Shown piece by piece: positions 593 through 23,004 of a DNA stretch of 31,170 nt; position 1 is the first letter of the stretch; every line of letters starts with the position of its first letter. This stretch comes from a virus. The notes beneath the pieces are model-generated. The model did no database searches, had not been told where the DNA came from, and saw only the letters and a program-made list of their open reading frames with translations. The stretch covers positions 1 through 31,170 of IMG/VR virus record IMGVR_UViG_3300043570_002173; one strand, given 5' to 3'. The position numbers and the translations under genes were made by a program.

Positions 593-752
593 AGTCAGGT
601 GGCGGAATTGGTAGACGCTAAGTTATATACAATCTTATTAGAGTTCCTTACTACCTAAATTGGTGCTGCATGCTAGGCGGTTTAGGTACTAAAAGGGAAA
701 CAAGGCATGATAAAACATGGAACTCATACAGGTTCGATTCCTGTCCTGACTA
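593..752 (+). ncRNA. tRNA-like RNA A, class II type with giant variable region
   Basis: The ends form a perfect tRNA frame: acceptor AGTCAGG (593-599) with CCTGACT (745-751), discriminator A752, T stem ACAGG/CCTGT with loop TTCGATT, and a Leu-like D arm containing GGTAGAC. Between D and T arms are 109 bases, against roughly 35 in a normal class II tRNA. A 22-base segment (619-640) with only a weak 4-pair stem replaces the anticodon arm. Then come a 7-pair helix GAGTTCC/GGAACTC (641-647 with 719-725) and a nested 7-pair helix ACCTAAA/TTTAGGT (653-659 with 681-687). The outer helix stops two bases (AT) before the T stem, where a class II variable arm ends. CCA is not encoded. I cannot assign an anticodon. 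It may be an intron-containing tRNA or a tRNA mimic. Confidence 0.7.
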
Positions 753-766
753 CAAATATTATAAAT

Positions 767-880
767 ATGTATTACATTGATGAAAAAGGTAGATTAATCT
801 ACGAATCGTGTGGAATGAAATCAGAAGTGATTGGATTTGATTATGACGGTCAATTCAATATTATACTTCTTTGGGAATAA
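767..880 (+). CDS. Small protein after tRNA-like RNA A (37 aa)
   Basis: ATG at 767 opens a 37-codon frame ending in TAA; the product starts MYYIDEKGRLIYES. It has no membrane segment and is rich in Gly, Ile and acidic residues. It has no Shine-Dalgarno sequence but an A/T-rich leader. Its start lies 15 bases after the discriminator base of tRNA-like RNA A, and RNA B begins 6 bases after its stop, so it sits exactly between two tRNA-like units. I do not recognise it. Expression might depend on tRNA-type 3' processing upstream, which would create its mRNA 5' end. Confidence 0.5.
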   Translation: MYYIDEKGRLIYESCGMKSEVIGFDYDGQFNIILLWE

Positions 881-885
881 AATTT

Positions 886-1009
886 AGTCAGGTGGCGGAA
901 TGGTAGACGCATGAATAAAGGTTAATAGTAAAGATAACGTGAGTAACCTCGAAAGACCCGTTAAGACTGCTCATAAGTTATCATACAGGTTCGAATCCTG
1001 TCCTGACTA
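886..1009 (+). ncRNA. tRNA-like RNA B, with long variable arm and possible kissing pairing
   Basis: Acceptor AGTCAGG (886-892)/CCTGACT (1002-1008), discriminator A1009, T arm ACAGG-TTCGAAT-CCTGT (985-1001) and a class II D arm (GGCGGAATGGTAGACGC) are all intact. A 22-base segment (911-932), the same length as in RNA A, follows the D arm but forms no standard anticodon stem. It is followed by a helix GATAACGTGAG (933-943) with CTCAT-AA-GTTATC (970-982), about 11 pairs, in the variable-arm position and ending AT before the T stem. GGTTA (920-924) in the anticodon-region segment can pair with TAACC (944-948) in the variable-arm loop, giving a pseudoknot. No CCA is encoded and no anticodon is assigned. 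Confidence 0.7.
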
Positions 1010-1024
1010 CAAAAAATAAAAATT

Positions 1025-1096
1025 ATGAATGAATTAGAACAATGGTGTAATGAAAATGGTTACTATATAGGGGAATATTGGTTTCCGAATCGTTAA
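1025..1096 (+). CDS. Micro-ORF after tRNA-like RNA B (23 aa)
   Basis: ATG at 1025 gives 23 codons ending TAA (MNELEQWCNENGYYIGEYWF, then PNR). It starts 16 bases after the discriminator of RNA B and ends 7 bases before RNA C. The leader is A-rich. By itself the frame is too short to be convincing; support comes from its exact placement, matching the ORFs after RNAs A, C and D. Function unknown. Confidence 0.4.
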   Translation: MNELEQWCNENGYYIGEYWFPNR

Positions 1097-1103
1097 ATAA
1101 AAT

Positions 1104-1220
1104 AGTCAGGTAGCTCAGTGGTTAAGAGCAGGTGGTGCGGGAAATGTATTGATACCCAATCTATCGGACACAACTAATACAAGTAAAGTGTAAACACAGG
1201 TTCGAATCCTGTTCTGACTA
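1104..1220 (+). ncRNA. tRNA-like RNA C, class I D arm with enlarged middle
   Basis: Acceptor AGTCAGG (1104-1110)/TCTGACT (1213-1219), discriminator A1220, T arm ACAGG-TTCGAAT-CCTGT and a class I D arm (TAGCTCAGTGGTTAAGAGC) are intact. The space between D and T arms is 65 bases, against about 22 in a class I tRNA. Inside it, TTGATA-CCCAATC-TATCGG forms a 5-6 pair stem with a 7-base loop, looking like an anticodon arm displaced by some 18 bases, but with C rather than the universal T at loop position 2. The acceptor and T arm are nearly those of RNAs A, B and F although the D arm class differs, suggesting shared ends on different bodies. Confidence 0.65.
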
Positions 1221-1234
1221 CAAAACAAATAGTT

Positions 1235-1504
1235 ATGAAAAAGGTATTTTATACAACAGTATTAACGGTTTTATTCCTTTCTTGTAAAGGTAAAACTTAT
1301 AAGTACAAAATTGAAGGTCAAGTTCCTGTCATGATCGAAAGACAAGTTGATTGGAATGAAGTAAATGTAACACAAGAACTTCGACCAGCAGTTGCATATA
1401 CTGATACGATATACGGTATGAACAAGGATTCTGTCTGGTATTATAATTCAGACGGAACTAAATTAACCATATTTAAACCGTATGTTATAAGTTTATTGAA
1501 ATAA
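1235..1504 (+). CDS. Small lipoprotein
   Basis: The 89-residue product begins with a short basic start (MKK), a hydrophobic stretch and the lipobox-like sequence LFLSC, with Cys at residue 17, typical of a signal-peptidase II lipoprotein. The mature part is about 70 residues, polar and with several Tyr, and has no recognised domain. The start lies 15 bases downstream of tRNA-like RNA C, the same spacing as after RNAs A, B and D. A phage lipoprotein in this position could act in superinfection exclusion at the cell surface, but that is a guess from class behaviour only. Confidence 0.7.
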   Translation: MKKVFYTTVLTVLFLSCKGKTYKYKIEGQVPVMIERQVDWNEVNVTQELRPAVAYTDTIYGMNKDSVWYYNSDGTKLTIFKPYVISLLK

Positions 1505-1509
1505 TATAT

Positions 1510-1581
1510 ATCGGGGTAGATCAGTGGTATATCTAGATCCTCATAATATCTAAGTCGTAGGTTAGAGTTCTACTCTGACTA
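1510..1581 (+). tRNA. Degenerate tRNA-Met-like (CAU) element D
   Basis: The body resembles bacterial initiator-type tRNA-Met: GGGGTAGATCAGTGGTAT in the D region, an anticodon arm TAGAT/ATCTA around CTCATAA (anticodon CAT), then GTCGTAGG leading into the T arm. Two features are abnormal. The T loop is TTAGAGT instead of TTCGANT. The 5' acceptor strand ATCGGGG pairs poorly with the 3' strand TCTGACT, the best pairing needing a bulge. The 3' end CTGACTAC is the same as in RNAs A, B, C and F, as if the common 3' end had been copied onto a Met tRNA. It may be a decayed tRNA or a processing signal for the gene that starts 16 bases later. Confidence 0.55.
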
Positions 1582-1596
1582 CAAAAAATAAAATAA

Positions 1597-1857
1597 ATGG
1601 AAAATAATTTAGAATATTGGTTTTGTAAAATAGGTCCTATTGACAGAAGTAAAGTACCTTTTGGTGGTGATTATCCATTGAGAAGTGTTGTTGAGGATCA
1701 GTTTATTAATATGTTTGGTGAACAAGCAAAAACCTGTGGTAGTGGTTGGGGGTTAAAAGAAGAAATGAAAACACGATTAGATATTATTTCTCTTTTACCA
1801 ATAACAGATCCAGAAACATTACAGAAGATTGATGATATATTATCAAAAAGGAAATAA
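1597..1857 (+). CDS. Hypothetical protein (86 aa)
   Basis: I do not recognise this protein. It is soluble, has two Cys and a Gly-rich centre (SGWG), and ends in a predicted helix with a basic tail (SKRK). It starts 16 bases after element D, following the pattern of the ORFs after RNAs A-C. The region after it contains a promoter for the tRNA cluster, so it is probably the last gene of the tRNA-like/small-ORF transcription unit. Confidence 0.6.
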   Translation: MENNLEYWFCKIGPIDRSKVPFGGDYPLRSVVEDQFINMFGEQAKTCGSGWGLKEEMKTRLDIISLLPITDPETLQKIDDILSKRK

Positions 1858-1876
1858 AAAAAATGTTTAAAAAATA

Positions 1877-1908
1877 ATTGACATTTTAGTCTTTTATATT
1901 TAACTTTG
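1877..1908 (+). promoter_or_regulatory. Bacteroidetes-type promoter upstream of the tRNA cluster
   Basis: ATTG (1877-1880), 20 bases, then TAACTTTG (1901-1908), a full match to the Bacteroidetes -33 TTG / -7 TAnnTTTG pattern. It points at tRNA-Leu (2043) and the RNAs beyond; the 130 bases between have no gene, so the primary transcript would carry a leader before the first tRNA. Confidence 0.75.
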
Positions 1909-2042
1909 AAAAAGAAGATTAGTTCATTGACATATTGGTTATAAAGAATATTGTGTTGTTCTTGTGAGAAAGGAATTAAACGTAATAAATAATGTAAATG
2001 TAGAATTAACATTACAACACAGAGGACTTCTCATCCTCATAA

Positions 2043-2126
2043 GCTCGGATGGTGGAATCGGTAGACACGCCAGACTTAAAATCTTGTGGGCAATTGCCCG
2101 TTCGGGTTCAAGTCCCGATTCGAGTA
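2043..2126 (+). tRNA. tRNA-Leu (UAA)
   Basis: Complete class II cloverleaf: acceptor GCTCGGA/TTCGAGT with two G-U pairs, D arm with GGTAGAC, anticodon arm around CTTAAAA with anticodon TAA, a GC-rich variable arm GGGCAATTGCCC, and T arm TCGGG-TTCAAGT-CCCGA. CCA is not encoded. It shows what an unmodified class II tRNA of this genome looks like and so serves as the reference for the enlarged tRNA-like RNAs. Confidence 0.95.
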
Positions 2127-2141
2127 CAAAAGATGATACAA

Positions 2142-2264
2142 AGCGTAGAATGGTAAGCGTGGAGAGACGTGACGCAAAGGTACACACTAAGGAAAGGTAT
2201 TCGATCTTAATTGTATTGATGTAACAACCCGACTCTCTAATGGTGTGTGAAGCTCATATACGCT
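2142..2264 (+). ncRNA. Structured spacer RNA S1
   Basis: Between tRNA-Leu and tRNA-Arg, a 123-base segment is closed by AGCGT (2142-2146)/ACGCT (2260-2264). Inside, ACACAC (2182-2187) pairs with GTGTGT (2243-2248) and GAGAG (2162-2166) can pair with CTCTC (2233-2237), a crossing arrangement. There is no believable protein frame and no T-arm consensus. It may be a free small RNA released by tRNA processing on both sides, or part of the precursor. Confidence 0.35.
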
Positions 2265-2345
2265 AATGACAATAGTATAGAAATTATAGGAAGTGTTTAT
2301 GGTTATAGCCAGATTCCTGATAAAGCCATTTATCATCTTTTATTT

Positions 2346-2419
2346 GCACCCGTAGCTCAGCTGGATAGAGCAATTCACTTCTAATGAATAGGTCCCAGGT
2401 TCGAATCCTGGCGGGTGTA
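2346..2419 (+). tRNA. tRNA-Arg (UCU)
   Basis: Class I cloverleaf with acceptor GCACCCG/CGGGTGT, D arm TAGCTCAGCTGGATAGAGC, anticodon arm ATTCA-CTTCTAA-TGAAT giving anticodon TCT, and T arm CCAGG-TTCGAAT-CCTGG. CCA is not encoded. Anticodon TCT reads AGA, a codon used heavily in this AT-rich genome. Confidence 0.95.
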
Positions 2420-2467
2420 CAACAGAACGGAGTAGATTCCTTATAGAATCGAAAGGAGATGTAGTAT

Positions 2468-2624
2468 GGTTGGGTGGCGGAATGGTAGACGCTTATTGAC
2501 ACGCACGGCAGCCGAAACGTAAAATCGATCAATGGTTAGGCAATGCAAATGATGAAGAACACTACCTCACGGTGCGTAGGTAAATTTCAAAGTGTTTATG
2601 TAGGTTCGAATCCTACCCCAACCA
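2468..2624 (+). ncRNA. tRNA-like RNA E, class II type with enlarged anticodon and variable regions
   Basis: Acceptor GGTTGGG (2468-2474)/CCCAACC (2617-2623), T arm GTAGG-TTCGAAT-CCTAC and the class II D arm are intact. After the D arm, ATTGA (2495-2499)/TCAAT (2529-2533) makes a 5-pair stem in the anticodon-stem position, but its loop is 29 bases. A helix AACACT (2558-2563)/AGTGTT (2591-2596), or alternatively TACCT/AGGTA just inside it, lies in the variable-arm position and ends two or three bases before the T stem. ACGCAC (2501-2506) of the large anticodon loop is complementary to GTGCGT (2572-2577) of the variable-arm loop, a possible 6-pair kissing contact. Its acceptor differs from that of RNAs A, B, C and F, so it is not a simple duplicate. 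Confidence 0.7.
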
Positions 2625-2665
2625 CGTAACGGTTATGAGATTCCGAAAATTAAAAATCTCAAATT

Positions 2666-2737
2666 GGTTTATTAGTGTAGTGGCTAACATACATCCCTGT
2701 CACGGATGTGCCGAGAGTTCGATTCTCTCATAGACCG
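2666..2737 (+). tRNA. tRNA-Asp (GUC)
   Basis: Acceptor GGTTTAT/ATAGACC, anticodon arm CATCC-CTGTCAC-GGATG with anticodon GTC, T arm GAGAG-TTCGATT-CTCTC, discriminator G737 of this kilobase (2737), as expected for Asp. The D arm (TAGTGTAGTGGCTAACAT) is short but plausible. CCA is not encoded. Confidence 0.93.
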
Positions 2738-2956
2738 CAGGGAGTGTTCTCAGTAGAGTTCAGTTTGAGAGAAGATGTATCACGCACTTAAAAAAGGGGA
2801 TACAAAGTGTCAAACCGTTTATTCAGTTTAAGGGCGATAAAAACTGACGTTTTGTAGAGATAGTTTAATGTGAAAAACTTACACTCGTGATGTTAGAGGG
2901 TCTGATCACTCCTTTCACGTAAAAGTGACAATCGAACCCAAAGGTTGTCACAATTT
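2738..2956 (+). ncRNA. Structured spacer region S5 between tRNA-Asp and tRNA-Glu
   Basis: This 219-base stretch has no coding frame but a chain of local helices: TCTCA/TGAGA, GTATC/GATAC interleaved with CACTT/AAGTG (a possible pseudoknot near 2779-2814), CAGTTT/AAACTG, GTGAT/ATCAC, TCAC-GTAAAA-GTGA, and a 7-pair hairpin GTGACAA (2925-2931)/TTGTCAC (2945-2951) six bases before tRNA-Glu. No terminal helix closes the whole, so it may be more than one RNA. It is probably transcribed as part of the tRNA precursor. Confidence 0.3.
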
Positions 2957-3031
2957 GCTCCCATCGTCTAACGGTTAGGACATCAGGTTTTCATCCTGAA
3001 AATCGGAGTTCGATTCTCCGTGGGAGTACCA
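2957..3031 (+). tRNA. tRNA-Glu (UUC), CCA encoded
   Basis: Acceptor GCTCCCA/TGGGAGT, anticodon arm TCAGG-TTTTCAT-CCTGA with anticodon TTC, T arm GGAGT-TCGATTC pattern with CTCCG side, discriminator A3028 followed by encoded CCA (3029-3031). It is the only RNA of the cluster with a genomic CCA end; the others would need it added after 3' processing. Confidence 0.93.
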
Positions 3032-3035
3032 AAGT

Positions 3036-3113
3036 GGGTAAGAGCGTAATGAGGCACGGTGCCGAGTCCCGTAAAAAGGTTGTTCATTGTGGGTTCGAAT
3101 CCCACCTTACCTA
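3036..3113 (+). ncRNA. tRNA-like RNA G lacking D and anticodon arms
   Basis: Acceptor GGGTAAG (3036-3042)/CTTACCT (3106-3112) and a canonical T arm GTGGG-TTCGAAT-CCCAC (3089-3105) are present. The total length (78) is tRNA-like, but the 46 middle bases do not fold as D and anticodon arms. Instead AATGA/TCATT encloses a segment with the motif GTGCCGAGTCCCGTAAAA (3059-3076), which recurs almost exactly in S3 at 3648-3666. It begins 4 bases after the CCA of tRNA-Glu. It could be a tRNA mini-helix carrier for a small RNA motif, or a tRNA remnant. Confidence 0.5.
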
Positions 3114-3120
3114 TTTGATT

Positions 3121-3212
3121 ACACATAAACTTAGGTACCCATACAGCGATGAGTATCGGGCTAAGTTATATACAATTCCTCGGAGCTGGGAGTAGAATGC
3201 CTAAGAGTGTGT
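3121..3212 (+). ncRNA. Structured spacer RNA S4
   Basis: A composite end helix closes this 92-base element: ACACA (3121-3125)/TGTGT (3208-3212) plus CTTAGG (3130-3135)/CCTAAG (3200-3205). Inside are the tetraloop hairpin CGAT-GAGT-ATCG and a 17-base sequence (3160-3176) identical to 617-633 in tRNA-like RNA A, where it fills the end of the D arm and the anticodon region. The helix is followed by a run of T (TTTTTAT), so it could also act as a terminator-like or processing structure upstream of RNA F. Confidence 0.45.
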
Positions 3213-3218
3213 TTTTAT

Positions 3219-3317
3219 AGTCAGGTGGCGGAATGGTAGACGCAAAGACCACGTAAATCCATGGGTTGTGGAGGTACTGAAAAAATTACCATACAGGTTC
3301 AAATCCTGTCCTGACTA
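3219..3317 (+). ncRNA. tRNA-like RNA F, near-tRNA size, class II type
   Basis: Acceptor AGTCAGG (3219-3225)/CCTGACT (3310-3316), class II D arm, and T arm ACAGG-TTCAAAT-CCTGT match RNAs A and B. A normal-looking variable arm GGTA (3273-3276)/TACC (3287-3290) ends AT before the T stem. The 29-base anticodon region has CCAC/GTGG around a 15-base loop containing GTAAAT, or a shorter bulged stem placing GTA or TAA in the loop. At 99 bases it is only about 10-14 bases too long, making it the least disturbed of the set and the best clue to their ancestry (class II, Leu/Tyr/Ser-like). The amino acid is not assigned. Confidence 0.6.
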
Positions 3318-3319
3318 CA

Positions 3320-3474
3320 AGCGGTTACCTGACTCCGATAGGACGGTAAAGCTCATTGGGATGTCGGAAGTCCACGAATGAGGGCGTAAGCAACAAAAAA
3401 CTTACAATGGCGGAGTGCCAAATACACTAGAAACGAGTCCTTGGGTGATCAATGGATAGTCTGAAATCTCCGCT
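3320..3474 (+). ncRNA. Structured spacer RNA S2
   Basis: AGCGG (3320-3324)/CCGCT (3470-3474) closes a 155-base element lying between RNA F and the next tRNA. It contains CTCATT (3352-3357)/AATGAG (3377-3382) enclosing GGAT-GTCGGAA-GTCC. S3 has the same nested hairpin with different paired bases. No protein frame is credible. With S3 it makes the strongest case here for a real, conserved small RNA fold. Confidence 0.5.
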
Positions 3475-3478
3475 AATT

Positions 3479-3552
3479 GGTCCTTTAGCTCATTCGGTTA
3501 GAGCAACTGACTCATAATCAGTAGGTGGTTGGTTCGATTCCAACAAGGACCA
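3479..3552 (+). tRNA. tRNA with CAU anticodon (elongator Met or Ile2)
   Basis: Clean cloverleaf: acceptor GGTCCTT/AAGGACC, D arm TAGCTCATTCGGTTAGAGC, anticodon arm ACTGA-CTCATAA-TCAGT (anticodon CAT), T arm GTTGG-TTCGATT-CCAAC. CCA is not encoded. The sequence fits both elongator Met and the Ile2 type in which C34 is changed to lysidine to read AUA; AUA is common in this genome's genes, so Ile2 would make sense, but the sequence alone does not decide. Confidence 0.93.
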
Positions 3553-3570
3553 CATAAACAATTAAAATAC

Positions 3571-3717
3571 TGATAGTGGTTTTCCCCACTCAACGGATGT
3601 CGACAATCCAGAGTGGATCAGGAATTCATCACCCCCTGAAAAGGACAGTGCCGAGGCCTCGTAAAACTACGATTAAGCACTTAAGATTGGAGCGAGACGG
3701 GTACTTCATCACTATCA
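3571..3717 (+). ncRNA. Structured spacer RNA S3
   Basis: An 8-pair end helix TGATAGTG (3571-3578)/CACTATCA (3710-3717) closes a 147-base element after the last tRNA. Inside are CCACTC (3586-3591)/GAGTGG (3611-3616) around GGAT-GTCGACA-ATCC, then TCAGG/CCTGA, then the motif GTGCCGAGGCCTCGTAAAA (3648-3666) shared with RNA G, and CGTA/TACG. A six-frame translation gives only spurious frames here. Function unknown; the discrete end helix suggests a stable small RNA. Confidence 0.5.
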
Positions 3718-3750
3718 CCTTATTTATAACCAATATAAATAACCAAAAAA

Positions 3751-4035: not shown

Positions 4036-4773
4036 ATGCCTCAGATATATAAAGTTGGTGGTTGTGTAAGAGATAGTATCTTAGGTGTTGAATCTAAAGA
4101 TATTGACTTCACATTTGTACTCGACAACATAGATAGAACAGTAGATGAAGGTTTCGAAATAATGAAACAATGGATGGAACATAAAGAGTTTACTATATTC
4201 CTTTCTACTCCAGAGATGTTCACTATCAGAGCTAAATTTCCTAAAGGTGATGTTAACGAAGGATTAGTTGCGGACTTTGTTCTCGCAAGAAAAGAGGTCG
4301 GTTACAAAGAAGGGACTAGACAACCTATTTTAGAATTAGGGACATTAGAAGATGATCTAATTAGAAGAGATTTCACATTGAATTCGATGGCGGAAGATGA
4401 AAATGGGAATCTAATTGATTTATTTGGTGGACTCAAGGATCTTGAAGATGGAATTTTGAGAACTCCATTAAACCCAGAAATAACAATGATGGATGATCCG
4501 TTGAGAATATTGAGAGCTTTAAGATTCTCAGTAACAAAAGGATTTACGATTAGTTTAAAAATATGGGACGCGATGGCTCAACCTGAAATCTTAGAGAAAT
4601 TAAAAACAACTGTTTCAGTTGAAAGAATGAGAGAAGAAATCTTTAAGATGATGAAACATAATACCCCACTATCTTTAAGATTACTTCATACCGTTGAAGA
4701 ATCTTACATACCTGGATTTTTGGATTTAGTATTCTCAAAAGGAATGTGGTTGAAACCTACTAACGAATTATAA
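4036..4773 (+). CDS. cca: CCA-adding enzyme / tRNA nucleotidyltransferase (short form)
   Basis: Class II nucleotidyltransferase motifs appear in order: KVGGCVRD near residue 6 (nucleotide-binding Gly loop), KDIDFTF near residue 23 with the two catalytic Asp, RRDFTLNSMA near residue 114, the template-type motif DDPLRILRALRF near residue 154, and SVERMREEI near residue 195. The family adds CCA, or poly(A), to RNA 3' ends. The 245-residue length is well short of the usual 400 or so, so the body and tail domains that grip the tRNA are reduced. It follows a tRNA cluster in which only one RNA encodes its own CCA, so a job in maturing or repairing the phage tRNAs is the natural reading. A poly(A) polymerase role cannot be ruled out. 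Confidence 0.88.
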   Translation: MPQIYKVGGCVRDSILGVESKDIDFTFVLDNIDRTVDEGFEIMKQWMEHKEFTIFLSTPEMFTIRAKFPKGDVNEGLVADFVLARKEVGYKEGTRQPILELGTLEDDLIRRDFTLNSMAEDENGNLIDLFGGLKDLEDGILRTPLNPEITMMDDPLRILRALRFSVTKGFTISLKIWDAMAQPEILEKLKTTVSVERMREEIFKMMKHNTPLSLRLLHTVEESYIPGFLDLVFSKGMWLKPTNEL

Positions 4774-6722: not shown

Positions 6723-7778
6723 ATGAATGAAATTTTAAATGAATATTTTGAAAAGGGTTTATTACATAAACAAGTTCACCCTACTTTGGATATAACTATT
6801 TGGAACTATAGTGAAAAAGTACAATATGAATCTTTATGGGATAAGATAACTCTGATGTGTAGGGGTTTGGTAACAAATTCTAATGGGGATATTGTTGGTA
6901 GACCATTTAAAAAATTCTTTAATATGGAAGAAGGTAAACATACTACCACATCTGAATTTGACGTTTATGATAAAATGGATGGTTCATTAGGAATTCTATT
7001 TCATTATGGTGATCAATGGGTATTGGCAACTAGAGGTTCATTCACTTCCGAACAATCTATAAAGGGTTTTGATTTATTACAAAAATATGATTACGATAAG
7101 TTACATAAAGATTATACTTATTTATTTGAAATCATATACGATGATAATAGAATAGTAGTGCAGTATGATTTTGAGGATGTAGTCTTATTAGGTATGATAA
7201 ATACTAAAACCGAAAATGAGGTTGACTTATATAGTGAAGGTGTAGATCTAAGATTAAAAAATTTAATTCGTAATATAGGTTTTAGAGTAGTTAAAAAATA
7301 TGATGGTATATCTGATTTCACTACCTTAAAAAATATAATAAAAGATGATGAAGAGGGTTATGTAGTTAAATTTTCTAATGGTGACAGAATGAAGATAAAG
7401 GGTGAAGAATATCTCAGATTACATAAAATAATGACAAATATATCAACTACAACTGTATGGGAAATTTTATCTAGTGGTGGTAAAATAGAAGATTTTCTTA
7501 AAGATGTTCCTGATGAATTTTATGGTAAGATTAAAACTTACGCCAGTAGTTTGGGGTATCATTGGTACCAATACTATAACCAACTAGGTAAAACTTATGA
7601 TTATTTTAGATTTGGTAAATACGGTGATATAGAAGTAGAACCAACTAAGAAAGAATTTGCGGAACATATTAAGAACCACCATCCAATTGCAAAGGCAATT
7701 ATGTTTGCGATGTGGGATGGTAAAGATTATGATAAAATTATATGGAGTGCTTTAAAACCAAAATTTAGGAAACTATGA
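6723..7778 (+). CDS. rnlA: RNA ligase, T4 Rnl1 family
   Basis: The ATP-dependent ligase motifs are clear: motif I DKMDGSLG with the adenylated Lys at 84, preceded by the Rnl1-type lead-in RGLV...RPFKKFFN (47-67); motif III/IIIa around FEIIYDDNRIV (about 139-149); motif IV EGYVVKF (about 218-224); motif V MKIKGEEYLRLH (about 229-240). At 351 residues it is close to T4 Rnl1 (374). The family joins 5'-phosphate and 3'-hydroxyl RNA ends; in T4 it repairs tRNA cut in the anticodon loop by a host nuclease, after Pnk has healed the ends. Here a Pnk-like kinase (9698), phosphoesterases and a CCA enzyme lie nearby, and unusual tRNA-like RNAs lie upstream, so repair or splicing of tRNAs is the likely role. 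Confidence 0.9.
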   Translation: MNEILNEYFEKGLLHKQVHPTLDITIWNYSEKVQYESLWDKITLMCRGLVTNSNGDIVGRPFKKFFNMEEGKHTTTSEFDVYDKMDGSLGILFHYGDQWVLATRGSFTSEQSIKGFDLLQKYDYDKLHKDYTYLFEIIYDDNRIVVQYDFEDVVLLGMINTKTENEVDLYSEGVDLRLKNLIRNIGFRVVKKYDGISDFTTLKNIIKDDEEGYVVKFSNGDRMKIKGEEYLRLHKIMTNISTTTVWEILSSGGKIEDFLKDVPDEFYGKIKTYASSLGYHWYQYYNQLGKTYDYFRFGKYGDIEVEPTKKEFAEHIKNHHPIAKAIMFAMWDGKDYDKIIWSALKPKFRKL

Positions 7779-9697: not shown

Positions 9698-10120
9698 ATG
9701 GATGATAAAATTTTATATATTGTAAGAGGAGTACCTGGTTCAGGTAAATCTACATTCGCCAAAAGATTAGTGGAACACGATTTTTTAGTTTGTGAGGCGG
9801 ACAAATATTTTGTCGATAAAGAGACTGGAGAATATAATTTTGATTTTAGTAAAATCAAAGACGCACATAAATTCTGTCAGGATACAGTTGAAACATATAT
9901 GAAGGATTCACTGATTAACGATAACTTCTACAGAGAGATTGCAGTTTCTAATACATTCACACAAGAATGGGAAATGGAACGTTATTATGAGTTGGCAAAA
10001 CAGTATGATTATAAAGTGTTCTCAATTATTGTAGAGAATAGACACGAAGGTATAAATGAACATGGTGTTCCTGAAGACAAAATTCAAATAATGAAAGATA
10101 GGTTCGAAATAAAATTATAA
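9698..10120 (+). CDS. P-loop kinase, N4BP2/polynucleotide kinase-like
   Basis: GVPGSGKST at about residues 11-19 is a Walker A loop, followed by CEADKYF (about 32) and YNFDFSKIKDAHKFC (about 45), SNTFTQEWEM (about 88) and HGVPEDKIQIMKDRFE (about 123). This exact order is that of the N4BP2-like group of AAA_33 kinases, related to the 5'-kinase domain of T4 Pnk. The 140 residues include only the kinase, with no 3'-phosphatase. A 5'-OH RNA kinase would supply the 5'-phosphate needed by the Rnl1-type ligase upstream. Substrate is inferred from context and family. Confidence 0.75.
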   Translation: MDDKILYIVRGVPGSGKSTFAKRLVEHDFLVCEADKYFVDKETGEYNFDFSKIKDAHKFCQDTVETYMKDSLINDNFYREIAVSNTFTQEWEMERYYELAKQYDYKVFSIIVENRHEGINEHGVPEDKIQIMKDRFEIKL

Positions 10121-11034: not shown

Positions 11035-11346
11035 ATGAGTAATAAAATTAAATTAATTATGAAAATATTTAAAGACATGCTTACAGAAAAAGGTATGTAC
11101 TCTCAAAGTAGAGTATATCTGTTGTGGGCAATCATCGCATATTATATTACACTAGGTGTGTTAATGTTTAAGGGTGTTAGTAAAGAAAATACATTGGATT
11201 TAAATAAGTTCCAAATCATTATAGATGCCTTAGAATATGCAATGGTTTTATTTGCGGGATATACTTTTGGTGGTAAATTTTTAAATGTAATCGAAACAAT
11301 TGGTTCATTAAGACATAAAAATAAAGAGGAGGAAAAAACTAATTGA
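11035..11346 (+). CDS. Two-span membrane protein, possible holin
   Basis: After a basic amphipathic start, hydrophobic helices at about residues 27-46 (VYLLWAIIAYYITLG) and 64-83 (LEYAMVLFAGYTFGG) are followed by a charged tail rich in Lys and Glu. Size (103), two spans and charged C-terminus fit class II/III phage holins, but no lysin lies beside it. Its stop overlaps the ATG of the first capsid-leader gene (TGATG), so it may instead belong to that group; the segment MKIFKDMLTE near the start is faintly leader-like. Confidence 0.5.
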   Translation: MSNKIKLIMKIFKDMLTEKGMYSQSRVYLLWAIIAYYITLGVLMFKGVSKENTLDLNKFQIIIDALEYAMVLFAGYTFGGKFLNVIETIGSLRHKNKEEEKTN

Positions 11347-11966
11347 TGAAAATAGTTATTACAGAAAGTCAATATAGGAGATTAATAACTGAGGATAATA
11401 AATCTTTTCTTGATGGTATGGTAGATTTCCCTAACATAAAAAATGTTATTGATCCTTTTATCGCAAAAATATATGTAACATTAAAAAATGACGAATCACT
11501 TATACCTAATTTGAGTTATTTAAGTACTAATATCTCTAATGGTCCTTTTAAAAAAATTGTGAGGGAGATTATGACATTAACTGATTTTACTGAGGGAGAA
11601 TGTGTAGTATTAACACATAACTATAGTAGTGTATATTGGGACGATATTGTTATGGCTTCTGAAACGGGAGATTGGAAATCTTTGATTGGCAAACCTTTAG
11701 AATTTTATGGTAAATTTAACTACCCTGCAACTGTTTACCACACAGGTACCGTAGGTGGTAGATCTACAGGTGACGCTTATGGTTATGCTAGAAATATAAA
11801 AGAATTTATTGGTAAAATTGGTGATGGTAATGTTGAAATTGAAGATAGAATGGGAAGAATTGATTCCGATGAAACTAATATTGACTGGGAGATTGACTGG
11901 GAGTTTACTAATGAATCATTTGGTGATGAAGAAATAGATTACAATGATATAGAGATAAAGATATGA
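11346..11966 (+). CDS. Putative internal head protein with capsid-targeting leader (206 aa)
   Basis: Starts MKIVITESQYRRLITED; (I/L)-x-E sites after residues 7 and 16 fit T4-type prohead protease cleavage. I chose ATG 11346, which overlaps the holin-like stop, over TTG 11343. The body is acidic, without known domain, and shares the order HNY...PLEF-x-G and a Lys-Ile/Arg-Asp segment with the protein at 12345, so they are distant paralogues. It heads a run of five genes with overlapping or touching ends. I infer packaging into the capsid and possible injection; activity is unknown. Confidence 0.6.
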   Translation: MKIVITESQYRRLITEDNKSFLDGMVDFPNIKNVIDPFIAKIYVTLKNDESLIPNLSYLSTNISNGPFKKIVREIMTLTDFTEGECVVLTHNYSSVYWDDIVMASETGDWKSLIGKPLEFYGKFNYPATVYHTGTVGGRSTGDAYGYARNIKEFIGKIGDGNVEIEDRMGRIDSDETNIDWEIDWEFTNESFGDEEIDYNDIEIKI

Positions 11967-12343
11967 GAATTAGATTAACAGAAAGTCAATTTAATAATTT
12001 ACTTATGGAAACTATTATAGTTTCCAATGCTAAGGTTAGTGCGGTACCTATTAATTGGGGTGATCCAAAATACGGTAAATACTCTGGACAACTTAAAGTC
12101 GTATATAAAGATATGGTTTATTTTTATAAATTAAAGGTTGACACTTTATTTTATGATGGTGGAGTTTTGATTAAAAATTTATGGGAGACTGAAGATGGTT
12201 ATGGGGTAAAAGATAGTACAGGTAAAACTTTTAATATTGATACGTCTCAAATGAATGATATAATTTCATTTATCAAAAAACAATTAAATACATTCACAAT
12301 TAAATCATCTAGTGTAGATTTAACTTTAACAAAAACCGTTTAA
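11963..12343 (+). CDS. Putative internal head protein with capsid-targeting leader (126 aa)
   Basis: Begins MRIRLTESQFNNLLMET; candidate cleavage after E7 (LTE) and E16 (LME). The remaining 110 residues are a beta-rich, unrecognised domain with several Tyr and Gly. ATGA overlap with the gene before and one base between its stop and the next ATG show tight coupling. Apart from the leader it does not resemble its neighbours, as expected if the leader is a portable address tag. Confidence 0.6.
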   Translation: MRIRLTESQFNNLLMETIIVSNAKVSAVPINWGDPKYGKYSGQLKVVYKDMVYFYKLKVDTLFYDGGVLIKNLWETEDGYGVKDSTGKTFNIDTSQMNDIISFIKKQLNTFTIKSSSVDLTLTKTV

Positions 12344-12344
12344 G

Positions 12345-12926
12345 ATGAAAATTAAATTAACTGAAGAACAATATAAAAAATTATTTAAAGAGGATACTGA
12401 ATCATCGTCTGTTGGAGATTTAATTACCCCAAAAGTTATTAGAATTATGAGGGCGTTAAAAAATATTTATACTAATACTGATAAAACTATTGAAGATTTA
12501 ATGTTTAATTGGGATTTGAGTGATGTTGATGCAACTACAATAGTACATAACTATGAAAAAACATTTAGAGATTTACCTAATGAGGAATATGAAACATTTT
12601 TAAATACCCCATTGGAATTTCAAGGTACTTACGTAATAAAGGCTAACTTACCAACTGTAATTACTGCTAGATCATTTTTAGATTATGAAATTACTGTTAG
12701 GGCTGGATCACGTCAAGAGGCGTTAAAAAATGTCATTTCTAAAATTAGAGATCGAAATTTTAATGATATAGAGTTAGTGGACACATACCCCAATCAGTTT
12801 CCTGATTTGGATTGGGATTTGGATGATGCAGAACTTGTGAGGGATATGGCTAGAGATACTTTAAATGATTTTTCAATTGATTGGACGCCAGATCAATATA
12901 AATCCTATATAAAATTAATAGAATGA
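12345..12926 (+). CDS. Putative internal head protein with capsid-targeting leader (193 aa)
   Basis: Begins MKIKLTEEQYKKLFKED, with LTE at 5-7 and FKE at 14-16. The body resembles the protein at 11346: VHNYEKTF, then TPLEFQGTY, then a segment rich in Arg/Asp (ISKIRDRNFNDIEL), so duplication followed by divergence is likely. Acidic C-terminal third. No enzyme motif. The stop overlaps the next ATG by four bases. Confidence 0.6.
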   Translation: MKIKLTEEQYKKLFKEDTESSSVGDLITPKVIRIMRALKNIYTNTDKTIEDLMFNWDLSDVDATTIVHNYEKTFRDLPNEEYETFLNTPLEFQGTYVIKANLPTVITARSFLDYEITVRAGSRQEALKNVISKIRDRNFNDIELVDTYPNQFPDLDWDLDDAELVRDMARDTLNDFSIDWTPDQYKSYIKLIE

Positions 12927-13273
12927 AAGTTTTAATAACTGAAAACCAACTTAAAACTGTTTATCAAAAAATAGTTGATATCTCATTAAATAATTTAAGG
13001 GATAAGTGTGAACACGCTACAGAAGATGAGGATTGGGATTATGCTGATGAGGATGTTGATTGTGAAATATTGGATATAGTAGAAAATGTCGAAGTTGCAA
13101 CTTCTTTTGATAATGAAATTGGTTTAATAATTTATATTGATTCTATTTTTGATAGTGCAGATGTAGGTAGTTTTTTCTATGATATAAAAGGGGAAATAAT
13201 GGATATGACTGGAAATAAAAACATAAAAGTTAAATTGCTAAATGTTATTAACAATAAAGAAAGAAATTGGTGA
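12923..13273 (+). CDS. Putative internal head protein with capsid-targeting leader (116 aa)
   Basis: Starts MKVLITENQLKTVYQK; ITE at 5-7 is the likely processing site and no second site follows, unlike its neighbours. The body is strongly acidic (a stretch with many Asp and Glu near residues 30-50). High negative charge is common among T4-like internal and core proteins. No family recognised. Overlaps the next start by one base (TGATG). Confidence 0.55.
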   Translation: MKVLITENQLKTVYQKIVDISLNNLRDKCEHATEDEDWDYADEDVDCEILDIVENVEVATSFDNEIGLIIYIDSIFDSADVGSFFYDIKGEIMDMTGNKNIKVKLLNVINNKERNW

Positions 13274-13689
13274 TGAAAATAATAATTACAGAAAGTCAAT
13301 ATAAAAAAATACTAATTAGGGAATTTGGTGAAACAATCAAAGATCCTAAAAGTTGGTATAAGAAAATACTTAAATGGGTTAATGGTGAACCTAAAAGACT
13401 TAGGTTTGATAGTAATGCATACGAAACAGTAGTGTATGATGATAATGATATCTATTTAGGGTACTATGATAAAGAAGGTGGGTACGGACTTGTCGTAACT
13501 GAATATGGTATCGGTATTGATGATTATACTGATGAAGAAATATTAGACGAGGAGGATGAAGGTGCACCTGCTGGTGGATCTTCTACTGTTTGGCCTCTTA
13601 AAGATGTAAATAGGGGAGTTGCGAATCCAATAGATAGCTCACCGTGGTCGGTTGAGCCTGCTAGAGGACCCGCAAATCAATTAACTTAA
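13273..13689 (+). CDS. Putative internal head protein with capsid-targeting leader (138 aa)
   Basis: The real start is ATG 13273 (MKIIITESQYKKILIREF), not the upstream TTG. Sites ITE (5-7) and IRE (15-17) fit the protease rule. A compact domain follows (about 25-90, with GYYDKEGGYGL), then an acidic run and a Pro/Ser/Gly-rich tail that looks unstructured. It ends the operon, with a convergent small gene starting its stop codon at the next base. Confidence 0.55.
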   Translation: MKIIITESQYKKILIREFGETIKDPKSWYKKILKWVNGEPKRLRFDSNAYETVVYDDNDIYLGYYDKEGGYGLVVTEYGIGIDDYTDEEILDEEDEGAPAGGSSTVWPLKDVNRGVANPIDSSPWSVEPARGPANQLT

Positions 13690-18029: not shown

Positions 18030-19118
18030 ATGAAATTAAGTAAACTTATAACTGAAAATACCATTTTACCAATACATAAAAGAGTTCTTAGGGCAATGAC
18101 ACTTTCTTTAGGTGAGACTGATGATGTTTCTGATATATGGGGATTTTTAACAAAAACTTTGAATATTGAGGATATGACACTAAAATTAGAATTGTTACAT
18201 TTATTTGTAAACAATTTTAATGAAGATGGTAATTATGAAGGGGTTACAGATTCAGATTTAGATGATATTGATGACATTTCTAACTACTATGATGAACATG
18301 CAGCTTTGTCGGAGTGGGCAAATTTACCTCCTATTATGATAGAAGACACCGATGAAGAACACTATGGGTTAAAAGTTTTCCGTAATATAGAAGATGATGA
18401 AAAATTTGCAGTTGGGACAGATAGTGACGTTGCATCGGCAATGGAGAAGTATTTTGATGGATGGGTAGACAATCAAGGTGGGTATGATAATATCGATATA
18501 TCACTAATTGAAGACTATATCGAACTTAATGATTATAGTCTTAGTCATTTCGCATCTGAAGAAGCAAATTATAGGGTAGATGATATGGATGATGATGATA
18601 TAATTTCTGAAGCAGGATACGATAAAGATGAATTTGAGGAACAAATAAGTAATATCGAATATAGAATTGAGGAGATTGAATCAGAAATATCTGATTTAGA
18701 CGATGAGATGAGTGATCTAGAAGAAGATAATGAAGAGGGTGAAAACGATTCAGCTATTGACGATGTAACTATTAAAATGAGAGAATTAAGTTCTGAAATG
18801 GATACTTTAGGGGATCAATTAGAAGATAAGAAATCTGAACTAGATAGTTTAGTTGATACTGCTAGAGAGGAGTTGATTGAAAAATATGATGAAGAGATAA
18901 GAGAAAGGGTAATAGATGGTGGTTTATCTTATTTTACTGACGAATTTGGGTTGTCTAAAGAAGATGCAATACGATACTACTACGATTTTGATGAGTCAGG
19001 ATTAGAGTCTTATTTGGCTGAAAATGAAGATAGAGGTGTCACATTAGCATCTTATGATGGTAATGAAAGTTATGAAAAATACAATGGGGAATATTATTAT
19101 ATATATAGAATAGATTAA
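18030..19118 (+). CDS. Acidic coiled-coil protein with capsid-targeting leader (362 aa)
   Basis: MKLSKLITEN at the start has ITE at 7-9, the second form of the leader. An N-terminal helical domain (about 13-60) resembles those at 23001 and 25098. A middle domain reads GLKVFRNIEDDEKFAVGT, and residues about 195-285 form an acidic coiled coil with many Glu and Asp. The tail (about 290-362) is Tyr-rich. The whole is homologous in layout to the 376-residue protein at 23001. I infer an internal head protein; strong acidity would suit packing against or alongside DNA. It opens the second leader-bearing operon. Confidence 0.6.
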   Translation: MKLSKLITENTILPIHKRVLRAMTLSLGETDDVSDIWGFLTKTLNIEDMTLKLELLHLFVNNFNEDGNYEGVTDSDLDDIDDISNYYDEHAALSEWANLPPIMIEDTDEEHYGLKVFRNIEDDEKFAVGTDSDVASAMEKYFDGWVDNQGGYDNIDISLIEDYIELNDYSLSHFASEEANYRVDDMDDDDIISEAGYDKDEFEEQISNIEYRIEEIESEISDLDDEMSDLEEDNEEGENDSAIDDVTIKMRELSSEMDTLGDQLEDKKSELDSLVDTAREELIEKYDEEIRERVIDGGLSYFTDEFGLSKEDAIRYYYDFDESGLESYLAENEDRGVTLASYDGNESYEKYNGEYYYIYRID

Positions 19119-20707: not shown

Positions 20708-21472
20708 ATGAAAATTATTATTAGTGAGAGACAATTTAGAAGATTAATAAAAAATAAATCTTTAATATCTGAAAATTTTTTAGATAAGGCAAAACTTATA
20801 CTATCTAGGGTAAGTAAAAATAAAACAGTCGGTAGTGAGAAACAGGCGACGCAAACGGCAGATGTAGACAATTTACCTAATTTAGAAAAATCTTTGGCAA
20901 AATTTGCTGAGGATATGAAATCAGCTAATTTAGGTAATTATAGAACACAACTACAAACTATAATAGAACCTTTGGGTTCATTATTTGGTAGATTAGAAGA
21001 TTTAAATGCGGAAGATTGTAGGAAAGGTAGAAAACCTGGTACTTTAGCAGCAGAAAGAATGGAACCAGTAAAAAATCAAATATATGACTTATTCCAAAGA
21101 GTTTATACTGATATGAAAAATGAGTTAATTACTAACAATTTATTGACTAAAGAAGAATCAAATAATTTTACTATAGATGATGCGATTGAGATGATGTATA
21201 GAAGGTACAACCAACAAAAAGGGTTCTTAAAAAATATTGCAAAAACAATTTTAAAAGCTTTAGGTGGTGGGTTTATTAGTGCTCAGATGTTAACAATAAT
21301 ATCTGATGGTATACGAAAAAAATTCGGTGAAAAAACAGGTGGTTTGGCTAACTCCATAATGACTGACTTTATTGGTGGGTTAATGACTGTAATGTCAGAT
21401 GATAGTTTAGGTGACTGCGTACCACAAACCGCTTCTAGTTCTCAAGAGGCATCAATAAAACAAGGTTTATAA
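20708..21472 (+). CDS. Putative internal head protein with capsid-targeting leader (254 aa)
   Basis: Starts MKIIISERQFRRLIKNKSLI then SEN: ISE at 5-7 and ISE at 20-22. The body is helical, with a Gly-rich hydrophobic part (about 175-240, LKALGGGFISAQMLTIIS and GLANSIMTDFIGGLMTVM) that could enter a membrane. A membrane-active domain in a packaged protein could help genome entry, but this is inference. The gene begins 12 bases after the 524-residue gene. Confidence 0.6.
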   Translation: MKIIISERQFRRLIKNKSLISENFLDKAKLILSRVSKNKTVGSEKQATQTADVDNLPNLEKSLAKFAEDMKSANLGNYRTQLQTIIEPLGSLFGRLEDLNAEDCRKGRKPGTLAAERMEPVKNQIYDLFQRVYTDMKNELITNNLLTKEESNNFTIDDAIEMMYRRYNQQKGFLKNIAKTILKALGGGFISAQMLTIISDGIRKKFGEKTGGLANSIMTDFIGGLMTVMSDDSLGDCVPQTASSSQEASIKQGL

Positions 21473-21482
21473 AAAATAAAAT

Positions 21483-21869
21483 ATGAAAAAAGTAACATTG
21501 ACAGAAAAGGATCTTTATAGAATAGTAAGAGAAACTTTAAATGAAGAATCTAAAGGTGAAAACTATATGTTTTTCAGTAACCTAACTCAAATGAGAAGAC
21601 AATTAGATATTATGATTAAAGAATTTGATCCGAATAAAGTAAATGACATTTTAAACAATGGTCATGATTGGGCAGATGATCATGTAACTGAAGCAAAGGT
21701 TAATATTGATCAAGTATTTGATTTCTTTATGAATAAATTAGAAGGTGAAAAAAAGTCTTCAGATATGTTAGAAGAAAAGTGGTCACAAAAATATAAAAAG
21801 TCTATTGACTGTAATAACCCAAAAGGGTTTTCACAAAGGGCACATTGTCAAGGTCGTAAAAAGAGATAA
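21483..21869 (+). CDS. Putative head protein with leader and C-terminal Cys/His module (128 aa)
   Basis: Starts MKKVTLTEKDLYRIVRETLN then EES: LTE at 6-8, VRE at 15-17 and LNE at 19-21. The body is helical and acidic. The final 23 residues, KSIDCNNPKGFSQRAHCQGR then KKR, form a compact basic module with two Cys and one His that recurs in phage virion proteins. It parallels the module at the end of the 524-residue protein (basic, Cys-containing), so these may be sorting or interaction tags at the other end of the chain. Confidence 0.6.
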   Translation: MKKVTLTEKDLYRIVRETLNEESKGENYMFFSNLTQMRRQLDIMIKEFDPNKVNDILNNGHDWADDHVTEAKVNIDQVFDFFMNKLEGEKKSSDMLEEKWSQKYKKSIDCNNPKGFSQRAHCQGRKKR

Positions 21870-22131: not shown

Positions 22132-23004
22132 ATGAAGTTTATTAATATAATTAAAGAAAGTTCATACCAATCTAAATTAGATAATATTTTTTATCGAAAA
22201 TGTTTAAACATGTTATCTAATTCGGAACCAGATTTAAAAGATTTTTTTTGGCAAAAAGTATATTGTGACGATTGTTTTTCAGACACATCAATCATTTACA
22301 GTAACCAATATAAAAGATTAGTAAATTTTTTTAAACATGAGTTATCTTTAGAAAATAAAGACACCAAAAACCTTGTATTTTTATATCTTATCAATATAGA
22401 CGTTAACAACTTTTTAACTGATAGAATTTCAACAGGGGAAGGGTTCCGATTAACATTCATTTCTTGTACTAGTCCAAATATAGAAGAGGATTATCGTGAA
22501 GAGTCATACCAATGTGGAGAGTGTGATGGTGATGGAGATGTATCATGTGGTGAGTGTGATGGTGAAGGTAATTTAGAATGTGGTTATTGTGGTGGTTCTG
22601 GATCTGAAATAGAAACAGATGGGGAAGGTGAAGAACAAGAAATAGAATGTAGTGAATGTAGAGGTGCAGGAAATGAAACTTGTGGTGAGTGCGATGGTAG
22701 TGGTAAAGTATCTTGTGATTATTGTGATGGTGCTGGCGAACAACACACTAGAGATCATTATTACCAGATGGAAGAGATTAGTTATATGGTTATTGCTACG
22801 GATGTATTAGAATGGGTAAATAGTGACGTTGATGATTTTTTTGAAAGGAATAGTAAAAACATTTATATGACTCTTGATAAGGAGTATGTGGAAACTATTC
22901 AAGTAGATTACGAAGAGGAGTTTAATAATAAAGTAAATGAAATTATTGACGTATTCAACGGTAATGAAATAACTTTAGATGATATAGAAAAATATATAGG
23001 TTGA
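22132..23004 (+). CDS. Leader-bearing protein with DnaJ-type zinc-finger repeats (290 aa)
   Basis: MKFINIIKES has IKE at 7-9, the leader rule. A helical domain (about 15-110) is followed at about 126-205 by six repeats of C-x-x-C-x-G-x-G type (CGECDGDG, CGECDGEG, CGYCGGSG, CSECRGAG, CGECDGSG, CDYCDGAG). This matches the zinc-binding cysteine-rich region of DnaJ and related proteins. No J domain is present. The tail is acidic. In DnaJ the region helps hold unfolded clients and has thiol activity; here a packaged zinc protein with chaperone-like features is suggested. Overlaps the next gene by four bases. Confidence 0.7.
   Translation: MKFINIIKESSYQSKLDNIFYRKCLNMLSNSEPDLKDFFWQKVYCDDCFSDTSIIYSNQYKRLVNFFKHELSLENKDTKNLVFLYLINIDVNNFLTDRISTGEGFRLTFISCTSPNIEEDYREESYQCGECDGDGDVSCGECDGEGNLECGYCGGSGSEIETDGEGEEQEIECSECRGAGNETCGECDGSGKVSCDYCDGAGEQHTRDHYYQMEEISYMVIATDVLEWVNSDVDDFFERNSKNIYMTLDKEYVETIQVDYEEEFNNKVNEIIDVFNGNEITLDDIEKYIG

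Follow-up and report, generated by a model that had tools for sequence, protein, structure and literature searches.

The viral genome record IMGVR_UViG_3300043570_002173 of IMG/VR, of which positions 1 to 31,170 were analyzed as one stretch (the window, 31,170 nucleotides), carries between positions 593 and 3,317 an array of transfer RNA (tRNA) genes interspersed with six tRNA-like elements, E1 to E6, that have intact ends and enlarged interiors. From comparison with related elements in other viral contigs, it is probable that these belong to a phage RNA system in which a constant tRNA-like scaffold carries exchangeable RNAs (cargos), is matured like a tRNA, is subject to swapping of the cargos as cassettes and presents RNAs acting in trans. 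The scaffold, the diversity and predicted structure of the cargos and their site-specific replacement are established by the alignments, in an analysis that is comparative throughout and draws on fragmentary viral contigs.

Constant scaffold of the tRNA-like elements

All six elements proposed in the initial annotation are present on the plus strand, each with a 7-bp acceptor and a 5-bp T stem. E1 (593–752) combines the acceptor AGTCAGG and a leucine-type D arm with a cargo of about 109 nucleotides predicted to fold as a long arm, E2 (886–1009) has the same acceptor, and E6 (3219–3317) also bears it around a 49-nucleotide cargo. E3 (1104–1220) is the fourth with AGTCAGG, and the claim that this acceptor is retained despite a change in D-arm class holds, as its D arm (GCTC…GAGC, with G15) is of the class-I type. 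The acceptor of E4 (2468–2624) is GGTTGGG/CCCAACC. As had been noted, the D arm is canonical in five elements, the exception being E5 (3036–3113), which represents a family of the form GAGCGTAATG-GGCACGGTGCC-GAGTCC…GGTTGYTCATTG followed by the T arm. Despite their size, three of the six score above the gathering threshold of the Rfam tRNA model, i.e., E3 (43.7 bits, E = 2.6e-6), E6 (40.0 bits, 2.7e-5) and E2 (39.8 bits, 3.1e-5). A seventh element that had escaped the first inspection, E3b (1515–1583, plus strand, ending in …TCTGACTAC), is decayed and with 22.3 bits for the Rfam match (1515–1575) remains below the cut-off.

The part kept among elements corresponds to tRNA nucleotides 1–25 and 48–72 and comprises the acceptor AGUCAGG/CCUGACU, a mostly leucine-type D arm and the T arm. 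Exact matches to a 25-mer from the 5′ end (AGTCAGGTGGCGGAATnGTAGACGC) were obtained in at least 120 viral sequence stretches, and where the contig extends far enough, nearly all of them are completed by a T arm and the complementary acceptor strand. Scanning with the 3′ end likewise gave at least 120 matches, many of them new relative to the 5′-end scan, and the combined loci provided 329 unique elements, about 60–260 nucleotides long. In each of 25 large contigs with matches, strand orientation is uniform, and a single contig contains as many as nine exact 3′ ends. Per alignment column, information usually exceeds 1 bit at tRNA positions up to 18 and from 48 to 72 and is close to zero at positions 26–47, with the drop at positions 26 and –26, the ends being partly fixed by the search pattern, which leaves the D arm free with the 3′ pattern and the T stem free with the 5′ pattern. 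In these free parts, elements chosen by the 5′ end have the T stem ACAGG/CCTGT almost without exception, and the D arm reads TGGCGnAA in 163 of the 219 elements chosen by the 3′ end.

Besides the TTCRAN T loop, the elements possess the tertiary core of tRNAs (U8, A14 and the Levitt pair 15:48), with E5-type elements lacking a canonical D arm. Position 48, the base before the T stem, covaries with position 15 (A:U in 230/255, G:C in 8/9, C:G in 3/3 and U:A in 5/9), and the pair follows the D-arm type, with A15:U48 in leucine-type elements and G15:C48 in combination with the class-I D arm of E3. As far as alignments can tell, the tRNA core is under selection, evidenced by this covariation and by compensatory changes in the acceptor. 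Most elements have an A as discriminator (A73). The sequence leading into the 5′ end is rich in A, and 81% of the elements bear a U at position –1 compared to 68% of 537 ordinary tRNAs from the same loci, a profile resembling that of ordinary tRNAs and hence consistent with RNase P processing. CCA is encoded neither in the elements nor in the neighboring tRNAs.

Among 84,980 species genomes, the constant part gave 10 matches, every one in contigs of metagenome-assembled genomes (MAGs), and among 396 sampled Bacteroidota genomes the only match was the seed itself, the other 395 being devoid of it. Named phages in INPHARED matched neither the joined constant ends nor the E2 cargo. By these searches, the scaffold family is phage-specific. 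Its hosts are probably Bacteroidota, assigned indirectly via promoter type, MAG contigs and one prophage.

The E2-type elements L366:227 and L377:1912 (coordinates on the element strand) have a D loop enlarged by an additional insert that resembles a hairpin, i.e., at a second insertion point in the scaffold, and D-loop inserts were also found at loci L071, L030 and L414.

Cargo RNAs and their replacement at fixed sites

The interiors of the 329 unique elements fall into 243 clusters unrelated in sequence (blastn, E < 1e-3), a grouping by similarity that may split distant relatives. One of two readings offered in the initial annotation, tRNA ends joined to a different RNA cargo, is strongly supported by these comparative data, considering the conserved ends, the hundreds of unrelated cargos, the covarying core, cargos that are themselves conserved and covarying, and one cargo that also occurs free-standing. 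Moreover, homologous phages do not present E1, E2, E4 and E5 as decayed, non-conserved loci, the outcome named in advance as fatal to this interpretation.

Replacement of cargos is most clearly seen at a site (site 1) shared by nine phages, where flanks of 83–93% identity run flush to both element ends and the constant ends enclose five unrelated cargos. The same pattern is found at a second site (L014/L040, L022/L031/L217 and L042). When surveying the site-1 locus by a protein search with the gene downstream and inspecting the 460 bp upstream of it for an AGTCAGG element, 60 of 80 homologous loci proved to be empty, with a tight junction (…GCAGATAGACACATTCC…) in the sequences displayed, and 20 to be filled with one or two elements each, amounting to at least 10 different cargos. 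Filled alleles carry TAGTATATTTGCAT 12 nucleotides before nucleotide 1, matching TAnnTTTG, which is the consensus of the Bacteroidota –7 element. The elements of this locus thus have the features of morons, i.e., an own promoter, a position between core genes and absence from relatives. A promoter flush with the transcription start was also considered as a general rule and rejected, as it is found near +1 at a few loci only and most elements are without one. Cargos also recur between loci, with the one of L303/L312 reappearing in L097/L103 and that of L330 resembling the L165 cargo. Comparing L312 with L195/L302, the first cargo differs and the spacer and second element are identical, as would be expected from recombination within the constant ends.

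Several cargos are conserved beyond single phages. That of E2, ATGAATAAAGGTTAATAGTAA followed by a GATAAC…GTTATC hairpin, with a predicted pseudoknot AGGUUA/UAACCU, is present at about 45 phage loci with differing flanks. It occurs under other acceptors with pairing retained (AGTGAGG/CCTCACT, AGTAGAG/CTCTATT and, in a shifted alignment, that of L338), and both acceptor and T stem of the family show compensatory changes. The hairpin GRUAAC/GUUAYC covaries and is unbroken in 29 of 29 sequences, and the predicted pseudoknot (GGGUUA/UAACCC in L382) is likewise unbroken in 29 sequences save for the outermost pair. A mini-open reading frame (ORF) within this cargo (AUG-AAU-AAA-GGU-UAA, MNKG) has lost its start codon in L184 and L384 and is probably not coding. 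In a cargo family characterized by TACGTAG, stems are fully replaced (GGTACA/TGTACT, GTAACA/TGTTAT, AACACA/TGTGTT, GCGCAC/GTGCGC and GGGTG/CACCC). The E5 family comprises seven unique elements, among which five acceptors occur, and a homolog of E1 in L172 combines a cargo of 89% identity with the acceptor GGTCAGG. For E3 and E6, the copies seen were limited to records of the same phage.

The cargo of E4 is a conserved RNA with the core TGACACGCACGGCA…TTAGGCAATGCGAA…TACCTCAC-GTGCGTAGGTAA…, found at 35 unique viral places. Seven of these are scaffolded, with GGTTGGG, AGCCATG, AGTCAGG or GATTGAG as acceptor, and 28 are without detected scaffold, one of the latter (L418) being a scaffolded copy cut by the contig end. 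In the alignment of 34 sequences, a helix has changed on both sides in nearly every pair, i.e., covariation is heavy. Free E4 RNAs of several phages are closed by a stem of their own, e.g., AAGACCGTCA…TGGCGGTCTT in L407, for which the tRNA ends stand in in the scaffolded forms, judging from the alignment. A homolog resides in a prophage of Porphyromonas gingivalis, flanked by the major capsid gene on one side and the adaptor gene on the other (L443:3411–3570, corresponding to about 33003–33162 of Porphyromonas phage005b, PP754928.1), and is closed by the terminator-like stem AAAGACTGTC…GACAGTCTTTTT with a T run. Its long-range pair is changed from CGCAC/GTGCG to CGAGC/GCTCG in a compensatory manner. 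By sequence comparison, E4 is a free RNA caught in the tRNA-like scaffold. A 40-codon hypothetical protein is annotated across the prophage homolog, and this gene may not be real. In the sampled Bacteroidota genomes, the E4 RNA gave no match, and the E2 cargo gave four short matches at E ≤ 0.01 in the 396 genomes, corresponding to the chance number.

Some cargos (L096:3009–3130, L115, L059 and L091) possess a second T-arm-like hairpin (e.g., TGGAGTTCGAATCTC) or T-loop-like motifs of the type TGTAAGTCC. In addition, TAAGTCC and TAAATCC are enriched in cargos over shuffled cargos.

Alternative explanations and proposed mechanism

Several findings weigh against a family of functional, trans-acting cargos. 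Most cargo clusters are singletons in the sample, so that some cargos may be inert or decayed, and with a mean folding z-score of –0.73 the cargos are just mildly more stable than their shuffles. Rfam 15, applied at gathering score to 13 loci and at E ≤ 5 to the window array, yielded tRNA plus implausible matches only. Pairing of 187 cargos as antisense to the own phage locus was not in excess over shuffles, so that neither a known RNA family nor an antisense signal points directly to a target. Recombination within the constant ends is what we infer from alignments. Finally, a few genuine tRNAs share identical ends, e.g., tRNA-Lys(UUU) in L145, L165 and L186; these are possibly the source from which the scaffold derives.

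Compatible with the scaffold–cargo interpretation rather than exclusive of it is the idea that the elements are aminoacylated carriers, serving as substrate of leucyl-tRNA synthetase (LeuRS) and acting as Leu-RNA or as a sink for LeuRS, EF-Tu or the CCA enzyme. By general identity rules, leucine-type D arm, A15:U48 and A73 would make the scaffold a LeuRS substrate, and this enzyme does not need the anticodon; the TGGCGnAA D arm predominating among the elements and the frequent A73 would fit. However, a quarter of the elements, including E3 and E5, have other D arms and the cargo would be irrelevant for such a role, making this idea unlikely as the explanation.

The tRNA-like folds might also serve as punctuation, being cut by RNase P and RNase Z to create messenger RNA ends within polycistronic transcripts, with the cargo as filler. 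E1 to E3 indeed lie between short ORFs, with an ATG within about 15 nucleotides after each. Nevertheless, conserved and covarying cargos and their repeated replacement would be left unexplained, filled alleles at the site-1 locus have their own promoter, and 60 of 80 phages do without an element at this site, which renders punctuation quite improbable.

A decaying tRNA array leaving pseudogenes or hybrid remnants, with end similarity due to gene conversion only, would account for the unusually homogeneous constant ends, the many singleton cargos and the decayed copy E3b. Covariation in Levitt pair and acceptor, covarying and widely conserved cargos and filled alleles with a dedicated promoter argue against such decay, for which we see very little likelihood. 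No better suited are mobile or recombination cassettes at the DNA level (att- or homing-like) with incidental RNA: although cargos are replaced precisely between the constant ends and at a fixed site, the constraints are of RNA type (base-pair covariation, Levitt pair, RNase P leader and promoter at +1) and the elements, at 70–190 nucleotides, are too small for an integrase or nuclease gene, neighboring genes not having been systematically surveyed.

For assessing a decoding function, 120 elements with non-redundant cargos were submitted to ARAGORN with real and shuffled cargo, only the cargo being shuffled. Without introns, 25 of 120 were called as tRNA compared to 17–24 with shuffled cargos, and with introns 111 compared to 106–113. 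As these rates equal those of the shuffles, intron and anticodon calls reflect chance, and a decoding tRNA with a 5-bp anticodon stem and 7-nucleotide loop was rejected. In the window, ARAGORN without introns reports five ordinary tRNAs only, and with introns it calls five of the six tRNA-like elements. Intron families of Rfam have no match in the window array or the 13 loci. Hence, tRNAs split by a new class of small introns and decoding once spliced, the other reading in the initial annotation, are scarcely conceivable even with an anticodon arm called in 111 of 120 elements, as anticodon-arm exons are no commoner than in shuffles, the called isotypes spread over all amino acids, the cargos lack common splice sites, inserts at the same site differ wholly in near-identical phages and the E4 cargo is known free-standing. 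At the sequence level, neither decoding nor intron-bearing tRNAs are supported.

The scaffold–cargo interpretation involves a sequence of steps from transcription to action in trans, and what follows on transcription start, processing, recombination route, trans action and conflict role is what we infer. The cargo RNA would sit in place of anticodon arm and variable loop. Transcription may proceed within tRNA and non-coding RNA arrays and operons or, moron-like, from a Bacteroidota-type promoter positioned such that RNA synthesis would begin at nucleotide 1 or close to it. The ends would then be matured as in tRNAs, by RNase P, by RNase Z or exonucleases and by CCA addition; hints at an involvement of RNase P, RNase Z and a CCA enzyme are the U at –1 in an A-rich leader and a gene for a CCA-adding enzyme directly downstream of the array. 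Matured in this way, the ends would be defined and protected from exonucleases, with the folded cargo held outside the elbow. Homologous recombination within the constant ends, about 25 and 30 bp long, may pass cargo cassettes from phage to phage in exchange for others, and the cargos would act in trans. A role in conflict with hosts or rival phages, by counter-defence or superinfection exclusion, is suggested by the fast turnover of cargos at an optional fixed site and by the existence of tRNA-centered defences (Septu, retron-Eco7 and PARIS), and, being the step least certain of all, is put forward tentatively, with somewhat less than even confidence.

Array context, related systems and implications

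The window array is, by its sequence, a mixture of tRNAs, tRNA-like elements and non-coding RNAs. As had been stated before, ordinary tRNAs are interspersed with the elements, ARAGORN locating tRNA-Leu(UAA) at 2043–2127, tRNA-Arg(UCU) at 2346–2420, tRNA-Asp(GUC) at 2666–2738, tRNA-Glu(UUC) at 2957–3031 and tRNA-Met(CAU) at 3479–3553, all on the plus strand. The first long gene after the array (4036–4773, plus strand) encodes a tRNA nucleotidyltransferase of the CCA-adding type with a poly(A) polymerase head domain (PHROG 24229, E = 2.3e-60; PF01743, 9.3e-21). In an RNA-repair context, it is followed by a T4 Rnl1-type RNA ligase (6723–7778, plus strand; PF09511, 1.4e-17) and, also near the tRNA array, a small AAA_33 P-loop kinase (9698–10120), ligase and kinase possibly forming a tRNA repair set.

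Between E5 and E6, R3 (3114–3218) is a conserved structured non-coding RNA (GGGCTAAGTTATATACAATTCCTCGG-GCTGGGAGTAG) that recurs in nine or more further phage arrays, 8 of its 16 pairs showing compensatory changes. R3 has CTAAGTTATATACAAT in common with the E1 cargo, at the beginning of which it is located (from 618). Likewise, all remaining spacers of the array, R1 (2128–2345), R2 (2740–2956), R4 (3318–3478) and R5 (3554–3720), are conserved structured non-coding RNAs that also occur in other phage arrays and show compensatory changes, with no credible match in Rfam. Directly after E3, a small ORF resembling a lipoprotein (MKKVFYTTVLTVLFLSCKGK) is located at 1235–1504, and short ORFs also follow E1 and E2. 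About 10 proteins with unrelated bodies (encoded at 11343–13689, 18030–19118, 20708–21869 and 22132–24131) begin with leaders resembling one another (such as MKI-ITESQ-RRLI and MKLSKLITEN), reminiscent of the capsid-targeting leaders of T4-type phages.

Likenesses to known systems are functional analogies. The RNAs C and D (species 1/2) of phage T4 are stable non-tRNA RNAs of the T4 tRNA cluster, co-processed with tRNAs and of unknown function. By description, not by sequence, they resemble the elements as non-tRNA RNAs among phage tRNAs, but they are single RNAs of one phage group without a known constant scaffold, in contrast to the exchangeable cargos found here. When comparing the array with phage records by blastn, mainly ordinary tRNA regions were among the matches listed. 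Bacterial Y RNAs of the YrlA type, some of them in phages, are chimeras with a tRNA-like module that forms a domain of a Ro-binding RNA. In comparison, the topology of the present elements is inverted, with acceptor and T arm outermost and the middle replaced, and Y RNA families gave no Rfam match at gathering score in the window array and the 13 loci. Transfer-messenger RNA (tmRNA) also has tRNA-like ends around a large non-tRNA interior; however, its interior is a single conserved one with a tag ORF and pseudoknots, and it has no D stem, whereas most elements have a full one. Neither ARAGORN nor Rfam detected tmRNA in the window. In engineered tRNA scaffolds, the insertion site is in place of the anticodon arm. 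Such vectors, in which foreign RNA is put into a tRNA for stability (PMC3753655), are artificial, whereas the present scaffold is natural and found in hundreds of phage contigs. The pseudo-tRNA ‘tRNAOther’ of Bacillus cereus is tRNA-like, not used in translation and alters physiology, and is described as one chromosomal locus beside an island, without a known cargo family or swapping (PMC3399842). A phage tRNA-Tyr counters Septu and retron-Eco7, with PARIS cited in the same work; these counter-defence RNAs are likewise of tRNA type and their loci change by copy number and recombination (PMC13096335), but they are real tRNAs, unlike the elements, which are without anticodon arm. A described counterpart was not found in the literature within reach of the search, with preprints and most subscription papers outside of it.

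Current annotation either overlooks these loci or, with ARAGORN and Rfam, takes them for tRNAs that have unusual anticodons or introns. We give an even chance to the full proposal that a standardized tRNA-like carrier matures, stabilizes and shuffles an open-ended arsenal of trans-acting RNAs against hosts or rival phages, an RNA-cassette system not described before. The E4 RNA in the P. gingivalis prophage and the near-isogenic phages with filled and empty site-1 loci make it directly testable. If true, it would represent a large class of phage non-coding RNAs on a natural tRNA scaffold that itself provides the means of exchange, tRNA-scaffold RNA engineering would have a precedent in nature, and the targets of hundreds of cargos could reveal new conflicts between phages and bacteria at the RNA level.

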